Source of the DNA: Nitrospinota bacterium
Lineage (GTDB): Bacteria > Nitrospinota > Nitrospinia > Nitrospinales > VA-1
Assembly (NCBI GenBank): GCA_027619975.1
Contig: JAQCGX010000027.1
Coordinates: 1 to 48,421, forward strand
Direction of reading: 5' to 3'
Length of the DNA: 48,421 nucleotides
The position numbers and the translations under genes are program-made. Below the pieces are notes generated by a model. That model was not told the DNA's origin, did not search any database, and worked only from the letters and a program-made list of their open reading frames with translations. Below are positions 11,673 through 36,605 of this stretch, piece by piece; the stretch's first letter is position 1, and each line of letters begins with the position of its first letter.

Positions 11673-13076
11673 CTAGGGTTCCAAAGTCACGTAATAGCCA
11701 TACCTGCCCCGCTGAACCAAAAGGAGGGCGCTGTCCCGGCCACCGGCTTCCAGAATGGCTTTATTGAAGTCCTGCTCGTTGTCAATCTGGCTCTGATTGA
11801 CTTGCCGGATAATATCCCCAGGGCTGAGACCGATTCGTCCTCCGGCGCTATTGGGAGTCACTTTATTGACCATGACTCCTTTGCGAGTCGATAACTGGTA
11901 TTTTCTTACCGCCACGTCATCAATATTCTGAACACCCAGTCCCAGCCAGTTCAGGGTGAAATCTACAACCTTATCACTGGGGATGGCTTTTACTTTGAGC
12001 CGGATGTCCTGTTGCCGGCCCTCGCGGAGAACGGAAAACGTAATGGTATTTCCCACCGAATAAGACCCGACCCTCTGCTGGTACTCCAGTTTTCTGCTGA
12101 TTTCATGGTTGTTCAATTTGAGGATCACATCACCCTGTTTTATTCCCGCCTTGCGGGCAGGACTTTCAGGAAACACCTGAGTCACCAACACCCCCTGCGC
12201 CCGGTCCAATTTGAAATAGCGGAGCAACTCCGGGGTCATATCCTGAACCAAAACCCCAAGCCATCCGCGACGAACTTTACCGTAACTGATCAGATCGTTG
12301 ATGATGCGTTTTGCATTTTCTATGGGAATGGCAAACCCGATACCCTCAGCCTTCTGATAAATCGCCGTGTTGATACCGATTAAAGATCCATTGATATTCA
12401 GCAACGGTCCACCACTATTCCCCGGATTGATGGAGGCATCGACCTGGATAAAGTCGTGGTAAACCATATCTTCTCCCGATTTGATGGAACGGTTGAGAGC
12501 GCTGATGATTCCAGTGGTCACTGTGTGCTGAAGACCAAAAGGATTGCCTATGGCGAGCACCGTCTCGCCAATCATCAAATCGTCCGAACGTCCCATTTCG
12601 ACAAAAGGCAGCGGCTGGTCGGAATCGATCTTAATCACGGCCAGGTCCGATTTCCGATCCGCTCCGATCAAACGGGCGTCGAATTCGCGCTTGTCAATCA
12701 GAGTCACCTTGATTCTAACCGCCTTGCCGATCACATGTTCATTGGTCAGGATGTATCCCTCGGGATTGATGAGGACTCCCGAACCAAGGCTCCGTCGTTG
12801 TTGATCGAAATTAGGAATAAAATCCTTTAAAAACCGATCGAAGACATCACCTCCAAAATTACCTCCACCAAAACTCCGAAATGGATTCCCGCGCTGAGGA
12901 GGCGCCTCCTCGGTATAGATATTGACCACCATCGGGCCGACTTTTTCAACCGCTAAGACCAAAGGGGTTCTTCGGCTGGATTCTGAATGAGAAAAACCAG
13001 GGAAAGAGTTTAGTAAAAGGAACCAAAACAGGAGGGCAGAGAGAATAGCGGGTCTTACTATCCGGGGAAATAGCAT
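11673..13076 (-). CDS. Periplasmic serine protease, HtrA/DegP family (copy 1)
   Basis: A trypsin-like HtrA protease for quality control of misfolded envelope proteins. Numbering from the long start (13142), the triad is H136 (TNEHVIG), D166 (SDLAVIKID) and S243 (GNSGGPLL). Two PDZ domains follow at roughly 290-380 and 395-485. The ATG at 13076 is chosen because it begins a clean signal peptide (MLFPRIVRPAILSALLFW...); an upstream ATG at 13142 would add 22 residues. Neither has a good ribosome binding site, so the start is unsure. The linker before the protease domain is Gly/Phe-rich. A second HtrA gene lies upstream in the same orientation, separated by a MITE. The C terminus ends at a TAG. 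Confidence 0.9.
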   Translation of the reverse strand: MLFPRIVRPAILSALLFWFLLLNSFPGFSHSESSRRTPLVLAVEKVGPMVVNIYTEEAPPQRGNPFRSFGGGNFGGDVFDRFLKDFIPNFDQQRRSLGSGVLINPEGYILTNEHVIGKAVRIKVTLIDKREFDARLIGADRKSDLAVIKIDSDQPLPFVEMGRSDDLMIGETVLAIGNPFGLQHTVTTGIISALNRSIKSGEDMVYHDFIQVDASINPGNSGGPLLNINGSLIGINTAIYQKAEGIGFAIPIENAKRIINDLISYGKVRRGWLGVLVQDMTPELLRYFKLDRAQGVLVTQVFPESPARKAGIKQGDVILKLNNHEISRKLEYQQRVGSYSVGNTITFSVLREGRQQDIRLKVKAIPSDKVVDFTLNWLGLGVQNIDDVAVRKYQLSTRKGVMVNKVTPNSAGGRIGLSPGDIIRQVNQSQIDNEQDFNKAILEAGGRDSALLLVQRGRYGYYVTLEP

Positions 13077-13173
13077 AATAAGAAATTTAAGTGGGGTAAG
13101 GATTGAGATGGTGGACCGGAATTGGCCCACCATCTTCATCAAGTCAATACAAAATGGAAGGTTGAATGATTAG

Positions 13174-13357
13174 CAGGTTGCTGAAAAACTATTTTTGGGA
13201 CCTTAAAATGTTAATTTCAAGTTTACTGTTAATTTAAGAAAACCAGTAGCACAGGCTTTCTAGCCTGTGCGCACAGCCTGGAAAGGCTGTGCCACTTAAA
13301 AGCAAAAACCTGTAAAACTTAACTCGCTGACGGATTTTTCTCTTTTTCAGCAACCTG
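13174..13357. repeat. Family B MITE-like element with 15-bp perfect terminal inverted repeats
   Basis: The element is bounded by CAGGTTGCTGAAAAA (13174-13188) and its exact reverse complement TTTTTCAGCAACCTG (13343-13357), flanked by TAG and TTA. The interior holds the hairpin module 13245-13296 (CAGGCTTTCTAGCCTG and CAGCCTGGAAAGGCTG arms), also found in family A. It has no coding capacity. It fills the gap between the two htrA genes. A second copy in inverted orientation begins at 48269. Confidence 0.85.
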
Positions 13358-13378
13358 TTAGAGTTTAACCCTAAACCC

Positions 13379-14863
13379 CTAGTTCATTTTAACAGCCACA
13401 TAGATCGTGGTTCCTCCTCTGCGGACAAGAAACAACACCGTGCTTTCTTTTTTTACCGCAGAAGTGACGTTATCGTAATCCTGAACAGAATTAACAGGAG
13501 TTCGGTTGATTTCTGTTATCACATCGCCTCTACGGATTCCCGCTTCTCCTGCAGCACCATCAGCCGCTACATCGGAAACAAGAACCCCATCTGGAGAATC
13601 CAACTGAAGGCTCGCCATGAGTTCTGGAGTGATGTCCTGAACTTGCAGACCCACAGGATCTTCCTTGGCGGCGACCTGTGTTTCTCCTTCTTTCAGAACC
13701 TCGATGGTGATATTGAAAACTTTTCTTTTGCCATCGCGGATCACTTCCACGGGAACCTGCGAGTCGGGGGAGGTCCTGGCCACAATTTTTGGCAAGGTTT
13801 CTATTTCATCGATATCTTCCTTATTGAATTTAACGATGACGTCCCCTCTTTTGATTCCAGCTTTATCTGCAGGACCCTCGGGAATCACATCACCCACCAG
13901 AGCTCCTTTGGCAACCTTCAGACCAAAGGACTTGGCCAATTCGGGAGTGATTTTCTGGATCATGACTCCCAGCCACCCGCGCGTCACACTGCCCTTTTCC
14001 TTCAGATCCTTGAGAATGGTCTTGGCAATATTAATGGGAATGGCGAAACCGATGCCGACATTGCCGCCGGAATTGCCAGATATAATCGCGGTATTGATGC
14101 CAATGACATCGCCTTTGATATTGATCAAAGGCCCACCGCTGTTGCCAGGATTGATCGATGCATCGGTCTGGATAAATTCGTCATAAGGCCCGGCCCCGAT
14201 GTTCCGGCTGAGAGCGCTGACCACGCCTACCGTGACCGTATGGCTCAAGCCAAATGGATTGCCTATCGCCATGACCCATTCCCCGACTTCCAGGTTCTCT
14301 GAATCTCCAAGATTCAAATGGGGGAAAGGTTTGGTGTTGCCTTCTTTTCTTACAATCTTGATCAACGCAATATCGGTTTTGGAATCGGCTCCAATCAACG
14401 TCGCGGTGTGCTCCTTATCATCATCCAGAGTAACGGTGATTTCATCCGCTCCGTCAACCACATGGAAATTGGTGAGGACAAAACCCTCGGGATCAATGAT
14501 GAACCCGGAACCCATACCCCCTTTAGGCCGTTGCTCCGGACGTTGTTGTCCGAAAAAACGATCATAAAAATCCTTGAAAGGATCAGGACCGCCTCCCGGA
14601 GGAGAAGAAGGTGGAGGGGGAGCCTGAAATTGCCTGGCACTCGGTTGGGCTTGTCTTTTGGCTTTGACGCTCACGTTGACCACCGCCGGGTTCTGCTTTT
14701 TGGCGATATCAACAAATATGTTACTTGCCAGGGGGACCGTATCGCTACTCAATGCAAACGCCTGCTCTAAATACCCTTTACCATTGCTCCCAAACGAAAC
14801 CGGCAAGAGCAATGCGCCCGCAAGCATCAAAACAAAGGGGAGTTTAACAATCTTTAAATTCAT
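13379..14863 (-). CDS. Periplasmic serine protease, Do/DegP family (copy 2)
   Basis: A 494-residue HtrA/DegP-type protease-chaperone. The signal peptide spans MNLKIVKLPFVLMLAGALLL. The catalytic triad is H134 (TNFHVVDG), D164 (TDIALIKI) and S242 (GNSGGPLI). Two PDZ domains occupy about 275-385 and 400-490. A Pro/Gly-rich loop (PPPPSSPPGGG) at about 82-92 corresponds to the LA loop region. The ATG at 14863 is preferred because GAGG lies six bases ahead and it begins the signal peptide; an upstream in-frame start at 14905 would add 14 residues. It is better preserved to the DegP consensus than copy 1, and the two copies probably have distinct substrates. Confidence 0.92.
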   Translation of the reverse strand: MNLKIVKLPFVLMLAGALLLPVSFGSNGKGYLEQAFALSSDTVPLASNIFVDIAKKQNPAVVNVSVKAKRQAQPSARQFQAPPPPSSPPGGGPDPFKDFYDRFFGQQRPEQRPKGGMGSGFIIDPEGFVLTNFHVVDGADEITVTLDDDKEHTATLIGADSKTDIALIKIVRKEGNTKPFPHLNLGDSENLEVGEWVMAIGNPFGLSHTVTVGVVSALSRNIGAGPYDEFIQTDASINPGNSGGPLINIKGDVIGINTAIISGNSGGNVGIGFAIPINIAKTILKDLKEKGSVTRGWLGVMIQKITPELAKSFGLKVAKGALVGDVIPEGPADKAGIKRGDVIVKFNKEDIDEIETLPKIVARTSPDSQVPVEVIRDGKRKVFNITIEVLKEGETQVAAKEDPVGLQVQDITPELMASLQLDSPDGVLVSDVAADGAAGEAGIRRGDVITEINRTPVNSVQDYDNVTSAVKKESTVLFLVRRGGTTIYVAVKMN

Positions 14864-15553
14864 GTGTGACCTCGCTATACGATCCAAATTAATGAAAGTG
14901 TTCAATCCCCATACGGGATCTTCTGCCGAAATGAATTACTGCTTTAAAGAAGCACGCTGTTCCAGTGCAATTCTTTTCAGGCTACTAAATCTGATATTAA
15001 TCAAATATTAAAGCAGGATTAATTTTTCTTAACCTCTACGCCCGGGAGCATGACCGCCAATGGTCGAAATAAGAAGAAAAATCATGCGCGGCTTTTCAGA
15101 GTCTGCAAATGAAAAGTAAATGAAAAGTAAATGAAACGAGCTTATTCCAAATAGTAATAAAGAATAAATCCTTTTTGTGAAGCAAAACCTGACAAGACCC
15201 AACTTTTCAGAGATTCCCTCTAAAACTGTTTGGCTCCAGCCAACCTTTTAAAAAATAATAACTTTTCAGTGTACTTATTATAATTAGCCAGAGTTCTTTT
15301 TACAACCTCCATTTCCTAAGATGCTTCGACCCTTCCAGAATTACTTATTGACTCATAGTTTTATATAACAGATAATTATTCAAACAGTTCGAGTCCCGTT
15401 AAGGGAACCGGGCGAGAGAATCCGGGAATTTTCTCCAACGAGTTGCGCAAATTGCCCAAACTGACTTTTTCTACCCAAAATGGCTGGTTCCCTTAAAAAT
15501 TTTCTTCGTCCGCCTAAAATATCCTGGCAAAGATCTTTTGGAGGCACTCCACC
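14864..15553. other. Intergenic region between divergent genes
   Basis: About 690 bp carrying the upstream regions of the minus-strand htrA gene and the plus-strand DUF2065 gene. No gene is recognised. The only structure noted is an 11-bp tandem repeat, AAATGAAAAGT twice at 15107-15128 with a partial third unit, and a GTTCGAGTCCC string at 15387-15397 that is not part of a tRNA. Base composition is AT-rich, in line with promoter DNA. Confidence 0.5.
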
Positions 15554-27695: not shown

Positions 27696-29900
27696 ATGTT
27701 GCCAACTGAACGGGTTTTAATCGTAGACGATGAAAAAAATATAGTCAGTTCGCTGAAGGATATTCTTACCGATGAAGGATACGAAGTTTCAGTCGCCAGG
27801 GATGGCCTGGGCGCTTTGGAGATGATTCAATCCAATCCTCCCGATCTGATGCTGCTGGATATCTGGCTGCCCGGAATGGACGGCATCGAGGTGTTGAAAA
27901 CCGTCAAGACCTACCATCCTGAAATTGAAGTTCTGATCATGTCCGGTCACGGCACCATTGACACTGCAGTCCAGGCAACCAAACTCGGCGCGTTTGACTT
28001 CATTGAAAAACCTTTCTCCCTGGACAAACTAACTCAATCGGTCGAAAACGTTTTTAAAGAAAAACACAAAACCCACGAAAACCTGGAAAACACTCTGTTG
28101 GCACAAGACGACCTTCCTCTCTGTTTTGAAATGATGGTGGAAGTGAAAAAAGCCACCCAACAGGCTTCGCAAAGTAATGACCCCATTTTATTGCTGGGCG
28201 AAAAAGGAACGGGAAAAGAGTTCATCGCGTATTGCATACATCGAAAAGGCAAACAGAGCAACCGTCCTTTCATCAAACTGAACTGCGCTGTCCGGCAACC
28301 TCAGGACATTCAGACCCATTTGTTCTCCGACGAGAAGAAAAAATCATCTTCCCTAAAAGGGTCCAAAACGTCACCTTTCAATATGCAGGGTTCCGTGGTT
28401 TACCTCAGCAACGTTGAGTCCCTGGATAAAGATCTCCAAAAGAGGCTCGTACATGAATTGAAAGGCGAGTCCACCTGTGCATTTCTTCCCGCGCGACTTT
28501 TAATCTCCTCATCAAAGAATTTAAAAGTGTTGGCCACCGCCGGACAATTTAATAATGAGTTATTGGACTTATTTGAGAACACCACCATTAAGATCCCGCC
28601 CCTACGCGATTATGCGGCCAATATTCCCATGATGGTCAAAGATTATTTTGAGGAATGCGCCGAAAGGGAAAAGTTCGCCACTCCTGTCGTCGAAGAAGAA
28701 GCGCTGACGGCTTTGTGCCGTTATGATTGGCCGGAAAATGTGAAGGAACTGCGAGACATCCTGGATAAACTTCTGATCACCGGCTCAACTCAGGGGAAAA
28801 TTTCATTGCAGAAAATTCTTCCTGAAATTCAAAAACCCCAGAACGGAATCTCCCATAAGGAGTTTGATCATTTTGAATCGTTCCAGGAAGCGGAGCTGAC
28901 CTGGGAAAAAGGCTTCATCATCCACAACTTGAGAAAAAACGGATGGGACCTGGGAAAAACCTGCAAGGCTCTTAAAACAGACAAAAAACAATTTCAGGAA
29001 AAACTGAAGCGGCACTCCATTCGCCTCCCGCAACCCAACGGCAAACAGCCCACCCCTCCTCCCCTGATACAGAGAACTCTCAAGCGAAGTGTGGTTCTTT
29101 GCGGAAGCGGGCTCCATTCAGGAATCAAGACCGGGCTCATCCTTCAGCCTCTTCCCCCTGGGAGCGGCATTATTTTTGGAGATATTTCCACAGGGAAAAC
29201 CATTCCGGCGCGGTTGGAAAATGTGCAGTCTACGGATTACTCAACCTGCCTGAAAAAGGGATTGGTATCCGTGGCCACCATCGAACACATTATGGCGGTT
29301 TTACACATGTACCGGATCATCAACCTTCTCATTAAGGTCGGTGACGAGGCCCCGGTGATGGACGGTTCTGCAAAGGATTTTTGTGCGTTGATCGAGGATG
29401 GAGAATTCGAGGAGCAGGATGGAATTTACGATGAAATCGTCATCGATAAAACCTACACATTTGGGCCTCATAAAGAAAATGGTCCGATGATTTCCATCGA
29501 ACCCGCTGACAAGTTTACCGTCAGTTATTACATGAAATATCCCGAGCCCATCGGCACTCAGGATTACACCTTCGTTTTTAATGGAGAGGCCAGTTTTAAA
29601 AATGAAATCGCTCCCGCACGCACCTTTGGCTTCATGGAGGACGTGGCGCAGTTGACAAAAATGGGATTTGCCACGGGCGGCAAGCTGGACAACTTTATTC
29701 TGCTGGGAGACAAAAAGGTATTGAACACCGAACTGCGGTTTGAGGACGAATTTGCGCGCCATAAGATTCTGGATATTCTGGGCGACTTTTACCTTTTAGG
29801 AAAACCCATTCGTGGCCATATCAAAGCCCACAGAACGGGGCACACGCAAAACATCGGGCTGCTGAAAATAATCCAGGAAAATCTGTGCCCGTCCACATGA
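27696..29900 (+). CDS. lpxC: Response regulator (NtrC-like, degenerate AAA) fused to LpxC
   Basis: A single 734-residue reading frame with two unexpected halves. Residues 1-120 are a CheY-like receiver with D11/D12, phospho-acceptor D55 (LLDIWLPGMDG) and K105 (EKPF). Residues about 145-380 resemble the NtrC AAA domain: the P-loop GEKGTGKE (168-175) remains, but the GAFTGA sigma-54 loop and Walker B acidic pair are missing. A Fis-like helix-turn-helix-like stretch follows (400-442). Residues about 458-734 are a whole LpxC, UDP-3-O-acyl-GlcNAc deacetylase, the committed enzyme of lipid A synthesis: E530-H531 (TIEHIMA), H689 and D693 (RHKILD), H716 (TGH) retain the zinc and catalytic residues. 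GGAG precedes the ATG. The frame is continuous and no stand-alone LpxC is in the window. Phosphorylation-controlled deacetylation is a hypothesis. Confidence 0.9.
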   Translation: MLPTERVLIVDDEKNIVSSLKDILTDEGYEVSVARDGLGALEMIQSNPPDLMLLDIWLPGMDGIEVLKTVKTYHPEIEVLIMSGHGTIDTAVQATKLGAFDFIEKPFSLDKLTQSVENVFKEKHKTHENLENTLLAQDDLPLCFEMMVEVKKATQQASQSNDPILLLGEKGTGKEFIAYCIHRKGKQSNRPFIKLNCAVRQPQDIQTHLFSDEKKKSSSLKGSKTSPFNMQGSVVYLSNVESLDKDLQKRLVHELKGESTCAFLPARLLISSSKNLKVLATAGQFNNELLDLFENTTIKIPPLRDYAANIPMMVKDYFEECAEREKFATPVVEEEALTALCRYDWPENVKELRDILDKLLITGSTQGKISLQKILPEIQKPQNGISHKEFDHFESFQEAELTWEKGFIIHNLRKNGWDLGKTCKALKTDKKQFQEKLKRHSIRLPQPNGKQPTPPPLIQRTLKRSVVLCGSGLHSGIKTGLILQPLPPGSGIIFGDISTGKTIPARLENVQSTDYSTCLKKGLVSVATIEHIMAVLHMYRIINLLIKVGDEAPVMDGSAKDFCALIEDGEFEEQDGIYDEIVIDKTYTFGPHKENGPMISIEPADKFTVSYYMKYPEPIGTQDYTFVFNGEASFKNEIAPARTFGFMEDVAQLTKMGFATGGKLDNFILLGDKKVLNTELRFEDEFARHKILDILGDFYLLGKPIRGHIKAHRTGHTQNIGLLKIIQENLCPST

Positions 29901-29937: not shown

Positions 29938-31293
29938 TCACTCGCGGACACCGGCTTCCTTCAAAACAGCAACCATTTCTTTGTGTTCAAATTGAGAAGC
30001 GATCTTTAAAGCCGTCCAGCCATTTCTGCTTCTTGCGTCAGGGTCAACCCCTTTCTGCAAAAGAAGTCTGGTCAAATCAGGATATCCGCCGGCAACCGCC
30101 CCCATTAGAGGTGTCCAGCCTTTTTTGCTGCGGATATGAATATCCGCTCCATGCTGCAATAGCACATGGACCGTTTCAATCTGTCCCCGTTCTGCGGCAA
30201 CCATCAAAACGGTGGAACCATTTTCCAACCTGACATTGATATCCGCGCCCGAAGCTATCAACTCCTGAACCATCTGTGAGTTTCCCCCCGCAACCGCGCT
30301 CATGAGTGCGCTGGCGCCATTTTTACTTTTGGCATTAAGGTCGGCGCCCCGTTCCAGCAACGTCCTGACAAATTCAATATTCCCCAACTGCGCCGCCAAC
30401 ATGAGCGGCGTGCTTCCACCATTACTCTTCGTATTCACATCAGCCTTATGAGCGAGCAAAATTTTTGCGGCTTCCGTTTGGCCATGCTTTGCGGCCTGAG
30501 CCAGAGCTGTCCAGCCCTTGTTGTTTTTTGCATGAATGTCAGCCCCACCTTCGATAAGAACTTGCATGCAATCCGTCAACCCCCGTGCAGTTGCCAGGGC
30601 CAGTACCGTATCACCGGCGGAATTGATGTTTTCAGGATTCGCCTCATGTTCCAGCAACAGCTTGATGATATCCGACCGCCGGGTGAATACCGCCTGTTGC
30701 AAGGGAGTCATCCCCTGCTGGTTTTGGACATTGACATTGGCTTTTCGTTCCACCAATTCATGCACCACGCCAAAATGGTTTTCTCCTATGGCAATCAACA
30801 AAGGCGTGGAGCCTCCCTTAATGGTTGACTCCAGATCCGCTCCACGGGCTATCAACCGTTTCACGGTTTCTTCATGGCCATAGCGGACGGCCCTTGCCAA
30901 CGAACTCCAACCATACATATTCCGGGCATTGATATCCGCCCCTTGATCGAGGAGCATTTTGACTAAACCGTTATCTCCCACTGTGGAGGCCAGAATGAGA
31001 GCGGTATCGTCGTAGCGGTTTCTGGCGTTGACCTCGGCCCCCCTGGCCAAAAGAAGATCCGCAATCCGGTGATGTTTTCCCGCCACCGCTACAATAAGAG
31101 CGGTACTCCCCTTGGCCGTCCGGGACTCCAGATCCACTCCCTCGGAAAGCAAATTTCCAACCTCTTTATAGTCACCCTGATAAACCGCAGACAATAAATC
31201 AGTTTTTTGATCGCTGAAAGCTAAAGGCGGCTGCAAAAAAAGCGTGAACAGGGAAAAAATAATTAAATAGCGCTGTCTATTCATTTTCAACAT
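29938..31293 (-). CDS. Secreted ankyrin-repeat protein
   Basis: A 451-residue protein made of a signal peptide (RYLIIFSLFTLFLQPPLAFS) and about twelve consecutive ankyrin repeats of 33 residues, each with the G-x-T-x-L-x-x-A consensus (GSTALIVAVAGKHHRIADLLLARGAEVNARN and repeats). No catalytic domain is attached, so it is most likely a periplasmic or exported binding scaffold. The ATG at 31293 is preferred to one at 31314 because GGTGA precedes it at good distance. It converges on the response regulator-LpxC gene with 37 bp between them. Partners are unknown. Confidence 0.88.
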   Translation of the reverse strand: MLKMNRQRYLIIFSLFTLFLQPPLAFSDQKTDLLSAVYQGDYKEVGNLLSEGVDLESRTAKGSTALIVAVAGKHHRIADLLLARGAEVNARNRYDDTALILASTVGDNGLVKMLLDQGADINARNMYGWSSLARAVRYGHEETVKRLIARGADLESTIKGGSTPLLIAIGENHFGVVHELVERKANVNVQNQQGMTPLQQAVFTRRSDIIKLLLEHEANPENINSAGDTVLALATARGLTDCMQVLIEGGADIHAKNNKGWTALAQAAKHGQTEAAKILLAHKADVNTKSNGGSTPLMLAAQLGNIEFVRTLLERGADLNAKSKNGASALMSAVAGGNSQMVQELIASGADINVRLENGSTVLMVAAERGQIETVHVLLQHGADIHIRSKKGWTPLMGAVAGGYPDLTRLLLQKGVDPDARSRNGWTALKIASQFEHKEMVAVLKEAGVRE

Positions 31294-31570
31294 GATTTCA
31301 CCGTTCAAGTTCATCAGTTATTATCTGTCAGGCCCCAGAGCCCACAAAAGCTAAGAATCGGCAAGGAAACATTTCCCTCCGTTCCTCTCCAGAACAGGTA
31401 TCCGAGGTATCTATAAAACTTCGTCTCAGGGATATAACTATTCTAACAGTGAGAGCCAAAAAATTTAATTAAATTATTGTATTTAAATGAGTTTAAAAAT
31501 ATTAGAAAGATATGCGTGGCGGGAAAACACTTCAAAAATCGGGACAAAAACAGTATGCGGGGAAAAAGAA

Positions 31571-34877: not shown

Positions 34878-36605
34878 ATGACTTTACTTAATAACACGCT
34901 CCCTGAAATTCGTCGCGGAAAACTCAAATCCCTTTTGCATGCAGGCAAAACCGTCCGTGTCATGGAAGCTCATAACGGATTGAGCGGGATTGTCGCCAAC
35001 GATGCCAGAGTGGAAGGCATCTGTGATAACACACCGGTCACCCGTGAGTTCGACGCCATTTGGGAAAGCAGTCTGACCGATTCCGCTTCCAAGGGTCACC
35101 CCGACATTGAAGTGATCAGCTTTGATTCCCGGTTGCACACCATTCATGAGATTCTTGCGGTCACTCACAAGCCCATGATCGTCGATGGAGATACAGGCGG
35201 CGATGCCAACAACTTCGAATACATGGTTACCAAGCTGGAACGCGCGGGGGTTTCTGCGGTCATCATAGAAGACAAGGTGTTTCCCAAAAGAAACAGCCTG
35301 GAAGCGGGAACAAAGCAGACTCTGCAGGAACCGGAAATATTCGCGCAAAAAATCCGCCGGGGAAAAAGTGTCCTGGCCACCGATGATTTCATGATCATCG
35401 CCCGCCTGGAAAGCCTGATCGCAGGCATGGGTCTGGAAGACGCACTGGAACGTGCAAGAATTTATCTGCTGGCCGGAGTCGATGGGATCATGATCCACTC
35501 CAAATCCAAAAGCCCGGATGAAATTCTGAGTTTTGCGGAAAGCTACCGCCATCTTTTGAACGAACTCAAACTCGACAAACCGCTCATCTGCGTTCCCACA
35601 ACCTACAACACCATCACCGAAGATGAATTGAGCGCCGCCGGTTTCCGTGTCATCATTTATGCCAATCATCTGCTGCGCAGTGCCTATAAATCCATGCTGG
35701 AAGTGAGCAAGACCCTTCTCCTCAACCAGAGGTCATTTGAGGCGGACCCTTTGTGCTCGCCAGTCCGTGAAATTTTTAAAGCCGTTGGCTTTCTGGACAT
35801 CAAGGAAAAAGATCAACAGGACGAACTCTCGACCAATCTGCCGGTCATCATTCCCGCCGCCGGGGAAGACCCGCATTTTAAACCGCTGCTAAACGGCAAG
35901 CCCAAAGCCATGATGGAAATCGCCGGAATGACCCTCCTTGACCGGCAAATCGACACACTGAATAAGGGAAACCTCAACGACATCACCGTCGTTGCCGGCT
36001 ACGCCGCGGACCAGATGAAGGCCGAAGGTGCGACGATTTTAAAAAATTCGGCTTATAAAAATGGCTCCATGTTGCACAGCATTTTTACGGCCAGGGAAAA
36101 GATGAATAACGGCTTCCTCATGCTGTACTCGGACATCCTTCTGGAAAATCATATCGTCACCAAATTGACGGATTGCCGGGAAGATATCGTGCTGGTGGCG
36201 GACAACACCATTCAATATCAGCGGGCAGAAGATGGAAAAGTGCTGGATTTCATCATCAGCAAACACAAGCATCAACCCAGCCGCCGACGCATCAGCGTCG
36301 ATTACGAAAACAGCATTGCCAAGATCGGCAACAAGATCAACCCGGAAACCGCAACCCATGAGTTTATTGGGCTGGCAAAATTTTCAAAAACCGGAGCCGA
36401 GCAGTTTATCCAGACCTATCAGGATTGCGTACAAAACTATAAAGGGAAATTCCAGGAAGCCGCTGATATAGCGGATTTCACCTTCACGGATTTGATCCAG
36501 GAAATGATCGATCGCGGATTTGTCATCCATTTTCTGGAAATTCACAAAGGCTGGCTGGAGATTCACCGGGAAGAAGACATTGCCCTGGCCAACAAATTCC
36601 TGTAA
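34878..36605 (+). CDS. PEP mutase fused to a nucleotidyltransferase
   Basis: A 575-residue bifunctional protein. Residues about 25-300 are a phosphoenolpyruvate mutase, with DGDTGG at 103-108 and the signature EDKVFPKRNS at 131-140, the enzyme that makes the first C-P bond of phosphonates. Residues about 322-575 are a MobA/PntC-like nucleotidyltransferase: PAAGEDPHFKP (326-336) replaces the usual AAGxGxR loop, then KPKAMMEIAG (341-350) and LYSDILLEN. Such fusions usually precede activated phosphonates or sugar-phosphonates. No phosphonopyruvate decarboxylase or transaminase is in the window, so the product cannot be named. Proline tRNA synthetase follows 50 bp downstream. Confidence 0.87.
   Translation: MTLLNNTLPEIRRGKLKSLLHAGKTVRVMEAHNGLSGIVANDARVEGICDNTPVTREFDAIWESSLTDSASKGHPDIEVISFDSRLHTIHEILAVTHKPMIVDGDTGGDANNFEYMVTKLERAGVSAVIIEDKVFPKRNSLEAGTKQTLQEPEIFAQKIRRGKSVLATDDFMIIARLESLIAGMGLEDALERARIYLLAGVDGIMIHSKSKSPDEILSFAESYRHLLNELKLDKPLICVPTTYNTITEDELSAAGFRVIIYANHLLRSAYKSMLEVSKTLLLNQRSFEADPLCSPVREIFKAVGFLDIKEKDQQDELSTNLPVIIPAAGEDPHFKPLLNGKPKAMMEIAGMTLLDRQIDTLNKGNLNDITVVAGYAADQMKAEGATILKNSAYKNGSMLHSIFTAREKMNNGFLMLYSDILLENHIVTKLTDCREDIVLVADNTIQYQRAEDGKVLDFIISKHKHQPSRRRISVDYENSIAKIGNKINPETATHEFIGLAKFSKTGAEQFIQTYQDCVQNYKGKFQEAADIADFTFTDLIQEMIDRGFVIHFLEIHKGWLEIHREEDIALANKFL

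Follow-up and report, generated by a model that had tools for sequence, protein, structure and literature searches.

We identified a gene that encodes an NtrX-type response regulator joined in frame to LpxC, which catalyses the committed step in the synthesis of the outer-membrane lipid, lipid A. The gene (27696..29900, + strand, as are all the features within it) is one uninterrupted open reading frame of 734 aa, and it sits in a 48,421-nt stretch of Nitrospinota DNA that was analysed as a whole and is referred to here as the window. We consider it likely that this protein is an NtrX response regulator which has gained LpxC as a new output, placing the enzyme under direct phosphorylation control by the kinase NtrY. 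That reading was reached without any experiment, and the kinase pairing, the effect of phosphorylation and the internal mechanism are all inferred.

The N-terminal half of the protein starts with a receiver domain of the NtrX type (residues 7-116, 27714..28043; Pfam Response_reg, 7e-33), which aligns with NtrX 5m7n and has all of D11, D12, D55, S83 and K105, the phospho-acceptor D55 being at 27858..27860. Next is an NtrX-type AAA+ core (residues 147-303, 28134..28604; Pfam Sigma54_activ_2, 1e-18) which has no GAFTGA motif and has lost the Walker B acids (the motif reads YLSN), while Walker A is retained (GEKGTGK, residues 168-174, 28197..28217). The core is followed by an AAA+ lid (residues 307-383, 28614..28844; Pfam AAA_lid_14, 5e-11) and by Fis-like helices (residues 398-445, 28887..29030). 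The Fis-like part has no match to HTH_8 in Pfam; it was recognised from the structure model, which contains three helices (396-414, 419-426 and 430-439), and from an alignment with Brucella NtrX that extends to residue 439. NtrX is also the top family for this half of the protein (NF051870), and the score of 265 bits, below the 600-bit cut-off, shows that it is a derived homologue, i.e., no standard NtrX.

The remainder is a complete LpxC domain (residues 459-726, 29070..29873; Pfam LpxC, 1.2e-79; Foldseek to Aquifex LpxC 1yh8), with no FabZ domain found by Pfam in the protein. PF03331 scores 268 bits against a cut-off of 27 and covers profile positions 1-266 of 268, and TIGR00325 (lpxC) scores 232.8 bits, above its cut-off of 187.25. 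The residues assigned by homology as general base and zinc ligand (E530-H531, 29283..29288), zinc ligands (H689-K690...D693, 29760..29774) and catalytic His (H716, 29841..29843) are all present. The domain is likely to be an active deacetylase because its genome encodes LpxB and no other LpxC, with the UDP-3-O-acyl-GlcNAc deacetylase activity itself being inferred. A preliminary description of the gene, made from sequence alone, had claimed that a receiver, a degenerate AAA part, a Fis-like helix and a full LpxC lie in one frame, that D55 and the zinc and catalytic residues are intact, and that the AAA part, lacking GAFTGA and the Walker B acids, is no sigma-54 activator. These claims were upheld by the reading frame, Pfam and motif analyses, with the Fis-like part resting on the model and the alignment; one correction is that the regulator part is specifically NtrX and its kinase very probably NtrY.

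Structural comparisons gave the same picture. Searched against solved structures, residues 7-439 align with Brucella NtrX (E 6.8e-55) and the C-terminal half aligns with Pseudomonas-type LpxC (E 3e-49). In the AlphaFold2 model, the individual domains are well formed (mean pLDDT 85.6), and Foldseek matched it to NtrX 5m7p (4e-31) and LpxC 1yh8 (TM 0.93, rmsd 1.9). Its pTM of 0.49 means that the placement of the domains relative to each other is not confident. A linker of low predicted confidence joins receiver and LpxC. Since the predicted models (pTM 0.49 and 0.68) do not fix the position of the receiver relative to LpxC, there is no interface to back an allosteric mechanism.

Conservation among the relatives indicates which parts of the protein matter. 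Counting the sequences that cover each position, with some species counted twice, D55 is present in 140/140 receivers, K105 in 141/141, and the LpxC catalytic residues (E530-H531, H689-K690...D693 and H716) in 145/145, so active-site residues have not been lost in homologues. The acid pocket and S/T83 are likewise retained in essentially all fusions, across several phyla. Mean pairwise identity among 56 long Nitrospinota fusions is 75% for the receiver and 77% for LpxC vs 42% for AAA+, with receiver identity exceeding AAA+ identity in all 1540 of the 1540 pairs; in 22 other long fusions, the values are 55, 56 and 28%, respectively. The two regulator domains are equally conserved (receiver 64%, AAA+ 62%) in seven unfused operon NtrX proteins.

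The AAA+ and Fis-like parts have degenerated or disappeared on repeated occasions. GAFTGA was found in 0/94 long fusions, and the Walker B acids are lost in most of those from Nitrospinota and partly retained (as LDD) in deep lineages. Walker A and the Fis-like helices persist in many Nitrospinaceae and some other lineages, and many other fusions have lost the helices. Within Nitrospinota, AAA+ is gone entirely from four loci (L016, L032, L045 and L020), in the last of which the Fis helices are all that remains of the AAA+/Fis region. The preliminary description took the AAA part to be a structural relay, and this does not hold in general: AAA+ is not a generally required relay, because many members do without it and the receiver and LpxC alone are constant. 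Where it is retained, it might be a spacer or an oligomerisation unit. Selection has preserved the link between a receiver that can be phosphorylated and an active enzyme, and not the transcription machinery, with both phosphorylation and activity inferred here from conservation.

The preliminary description dealt with one protein, a scope that was too narrow, as the fusion spans several phyla, often as a short receiver-LpxC. In our Nitrospinota sample, 65 of the 77 genomes have exactly one LpxC match, and the intact LpxC loci that we read carry the receiver, the few exceptions being fragments at contig ends. A scan of named genomes added 80 loci (with certain species represented more than once), and in nearly all of them a single frame encodes both receiver and LpxC. 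Thirty-five of these are long forms with AAA+, and 45 are short forms in which a short linker takes the place of AAA+, which is absent in 45/45. The carriers, by filed name, are Desulfobacterota (Desulfomonile, Syntrophobacter), Binatota, Entotheonella, Dadabacteria, Acidobacteriota (Thermoanaerobaculia, Holophagae) and MAGs called Nitrospirae; there are also MAGs filed as Deltaproteobacteria, a name that does not settle the phylum. The fusion is thus nearly universal in Nitrospinota and occurs as well in MAGs of Nitrospirota and in Desulfobacterota, Binatota, Acidobacteriota and Tectomicrobia. In phyla other than Nitrospinota, by no means every genome has it: LpxC lies in a frame of at least 418 aa in about 21 of 83 LpxC-bearing Desulfobacterota genomes (13 of these frames were read, and 13/13 have the receiver), and most LpxC frames listed for the Acidobacteriota sample are of stand-alone size. 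Receiver-LpxC is thus a family that spans several phyla and has two layouts or more.

The fusion is usually the only LpxC in the cell. It is the one LpxC match in the genome of the window organism, which has no separate lpxC, and it is the sole LpxC in 48 of 50 other fusion genomes checked, the two exceptions being one genome with two fusion-size LpxC genes and one with a weak additional match.

Three individual genomes deserve a mention. G106 (L113) has two LpxC matches in fusion-size frames on the same contig (at 1662668 and 1532777), a natural test of division of labour. G371 is the only genome of the Desulfobacterota sample with both kinds of LpxC, the fused one on C151 (L249) and, on C302 (L270), a stand-alone lpxC with DUF4390 and ntrY behind it, no ntrX being found after these in the stretch read. 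G024, which belongs to the same genus as the window organism (96% complete, 10 contigs), has NtrY and no match to LpxC or the fusion, due to either a gap or a genuine loss of lpxC.

A tree of 97 LpxC domains separates fused from stand-alone enzymes: a branch with an SH-aLRT of 99 has all 62 fused domains on one side, as a single clade. The simplest reading is therefore a single fusion event with later spread by descent or transfer. This tree is limited by its sampling, as the other side holds 35 stand-alone LpxC from Acidobacteriota and Desulfobacterota, and stand-alone LpxC from other phyla were left out. Seven changes of layout are needed on the tree. In the receiver tree (116 columns), the fusions also lie on one side of a branch, with a support of just 46, so the case for a single origin rests on the LpxC tree.

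Gene order suggests how the fusion came about. Seventeen Desulfobacterota genomes have a stand-alone lpxC with NtrY up to ~1.6 kb downstream on the same strand, and several of the ten such loci that we read show the order lpxC-(DUF4390)-ntrY-ntrX. In deep Nitrospinota and others, the layout is DUF4390-ntrY-[ntrX::lpxC]. Because both arrangements occur, two operon neighbours were probably joined, and the NtrX partner probably lost its sigma-54 motif afterwards, the unfused operon NtrX of Desulfobacterota having GAFTGA or GSFTGA and a normal Walker B. The fusion receiver groups with operon NtrX, apart from NtrC-type paralogues of its own genome (SH-aLRT 93). NtrX thus appears to have traded its transcription output for the enzyme alongside it. 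The complete operon lpxC-DUF4390-ntrY-ntrX is conserved at four Desulfobacterota loci (L263, L264, L265 and L268), and DUF4390 is possibly an envelope partner of NtrY, making it a candidate for signal input.

No NtrY-like kinase is encoded in the 48,421-nt window. The fusion gene lies downstream of greA and trmB and is convergent with a gene for an ankyrin-repeat protein of 458 aa (29938-31314, - strand), beyond which are genes for a formyltransferase, lolA, an M50 site-2-type protease and a class II tRNA synthetase. Promoter-like sites are below the shuffled mean, and terminator-like sites are all on the opposite strand; we rested no inference on either. Elsewhere in the window are a 575-aa protein joining PEP mutase and nucleotidyltransferase domains, which suggests phosphonate synthesis (34878-36605, + strand), and a pair of adjoining DegP/HtrA-like trypsin-PDZ proteases (11673-14905, - strand).

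An NtrY-type kinase lies directly upstream of the fusion on the same strand in 29 loci, several with a 4-bp overlap, and representatives carry NtrY_N, HAMP, PAS, HisKA and HATPase_c. This adjacency is seen in deep Nitrospinota lineages and other groups, and it is not seen in the Nitrospinaceae loci that we read. NtrY is present in 64 of the 77 Nitrospinota genomes, as one copy in each except for a genome with two matches. In the window genome, it is a single orphan with intact H, N and G boxes, located on another contig after a DUF4390 gene and without an adjacent ntrX. Of the NtrC-type regulators checked in that genome, none but the fusion has a receiver of the NtrX type: a fusion-receiver profile gives Nitrospinota fusion receivers ~190-212 bits vs at most 102 for the window-genome paralogues. 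NtrY is very likely the partner of the fusion, a pairing inferred from its adjacency in many relatives, its single orphan copy in the window genome and the lack of another NtrX-type receiver among those checked. The link has gaps: no match to NtrY was obtained in G023, which encodes a short fusion, several Desulfobacterota genomes with a fusion (e.g., G085, G351, G407) also have no NtrY match, and in others NtrY is located away from the fusion.

In the mechanism that we propose, the membrane kinase NtrY would sense conditions in the envelope or periplasm and would phosphorylate D55 of the fusion receiver. Phosphorylation would alter the packing or oligomerisation of the receiver (together with the AAA+ spacer where there is one), and this would make the cell's sole LpxC more or less active as a deacetylase, or more or less stable, so that lipid A synthesis would track the signal without a transcription step. 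The sign of the effect is a guess on our part: repression on activation, by analogy with NtrYX, which lowers lpxC expression in the alphaproteobacteria Rhodobacter and Caulobacter (PMC7240162, PMC12444477). The sequences establish that the fusion exists and is nearly universal among Nitrospinota, that its receiver site and active site are intact, that the regulator derives from NtrX and that relatives link it to NtrY. That NtrY is the kinase in the window organism, that phosphorylation matters and how the protein works internally are inferences. Two-component control of LpxC, which the preliminary description had put forward, is thus supported by conservation and NtrY linkage, while an effect of phosphorylation on LpxC remains an inference. 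A bolder version, which we consider rather more likely than not, is that this is an ancient, multi-phylum and hitherto undescribed form of lipid A control, in which NtrY phosphorylates a receiver built into the sole LpxC and directly sets its output. It would have a single origin, in the fusion of ntrX to an lpxC from the same operon, with transcriptional output abandoned.

The closest rival is a variant of NtrY control in which the receiver sets the amount of LpxC and not its catalytic rate, acting as a phospho-controlled degron or targeting unit (i.e., via proteolysis or recruitment to NtrY and the membrane). E. coli LpxC is regulated by proteolysis through FtsH (PMC5007114, PMC12444477), and a low-confidence linker fits tethering better than rigid allostery. 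Against it, the window organism has its ntrY away from the fusion, and any degron or targeting element is hypothetical. We rate this possibility well below an even chance. A bifunctional protein, combining a DNA-binding NtrX-like regulator (Fis helices, AAA+ oligomerisation) with an independent LpxC, is unlikely. In its favour are the Fis-like helices and Walker A kept in some lineages, the precedent of Rhodobacter NtrX, a DNA-binding regulator studied by ChIP-seq (PMC7240162), and the alignment of Brucella NtrX, which likewise has no GAFTGA. Against it are the absence of GAFTGA from all the long forms, the frequent loss of Walker B and Fis, the short forms that do without AAA+ and Fis, and an AAA+ that evolves far faster than the receiver and LpxC. 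Any DNA-binding role could only be lineage-specific.

It is also conceivable that the receiver is now merely a dimerisation or folding module for which phosphorylation is irrelevant. Some receivers function without phosphorylation, and there are no phosphorylation data for receiver-LpxC fusions, but the acid pocket, D55, S/T83 and K105 have been kept across phyla while neighbouring domains decayed, and NtrY still adjoins the fusion in many lineages, making this unlikely. An assembly or sequencing artefact joining two genes has nothing in its favour and is all but excluded: the same frame occurs in dozens of independent genomes, including three single-contig Nitrospinota assemblies (G010, G047 and G057), and no stop or frameshift was seen at the junction in the relatives read. 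A conserved internal start yielding free LpxC is not supported: a start with a Shine-Dalgarno-like stretch is present in the linker of 13/151 fusions only, compared with 30/48 stand-alone lpxC genes which have one near the domain start. Two apparent hybrids of kinase, receiver and LpxC (L253, 1007 aa; L094, 962 aa) were ruled out, as the stretch before the receiver is high-GC out-of-frame sequence.

NtrYX of Rhodobacter sphaeroides and Caulobacter, which belongs to the same regulator family, and DVU2934 of Desulfovibrio vulgaris, a response regulator whose only target is lpxC (PMC3333781), put the same enzyme under two-component control. Those systems act on lpxC via transcription, whereas the fusion has regulator and enzyme in one polypeptide; two-component control of LpxC is thus a recurrent theme, and in the fusion it would be immediate. 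The regulator most similar in structure is Brucella abortus NtrX (5m7n/5m7p), which can be aligned with our protein from the receiver through AAA+ to the Fis-like part and which has a partner NtrY gene. The fusion differs from it in having LpxC appended in frame, in the loss of the Walker B acids, in AAA+ and Fis parts that are dispensable and in an output that is probably enzymatic. The fused LpxC has the same complete fold and all the catalytic residues of stand-alone LpxC (Aquifex, Pseudomonas, E. coli), but it belongs to a separate clade with about 15 clade-specific positions (e.g., G480, K547), is always joined to a receiver in that clade and has a Pfam score below most stand-alone LpxC.

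LpxC-FabZ of Bacteroidetes, Chlorobi and Verrucomicrobia (PMC3087551) is also an LpxC gene fusion, but its partner is a second enzyme (a dehydratase), while here the partner is a signalling domain. Response regulators that couple a receiver directly to an enzyme are familiar from CheB, RpfG/HD-GYP and PleD/GGDEF. Those enzymes make, destroy or relay signals, while the output of the fusion is the committed step of a structural biosynthesis. No report of a receiver-LpxC fusion was found in the open-access literature that we searched, which does not prove absence, and the words 'fused', 'fusion' and 'response regulator' do not occur in a 2025 review of lipid A regulation. Response regulators whose output is an enzyme are already known, and what is new, as far as the literature searched can tell, is LpxC as that enzyme.

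With the fusion, an enzyme of structural biosynthesis joins the range of response-regulator outputs, and there is a clear case of a transcription factor becoming an enzyme regulator. The fusion also offers a new handle on the signal to which NtrY responds. If our reading is true, Nitrospinota, sulfate reducers, Acidobacteriota and Binatota, all environmentally important groups, would have a switch for the outer membrane that runs directly from sensor to enzyme.
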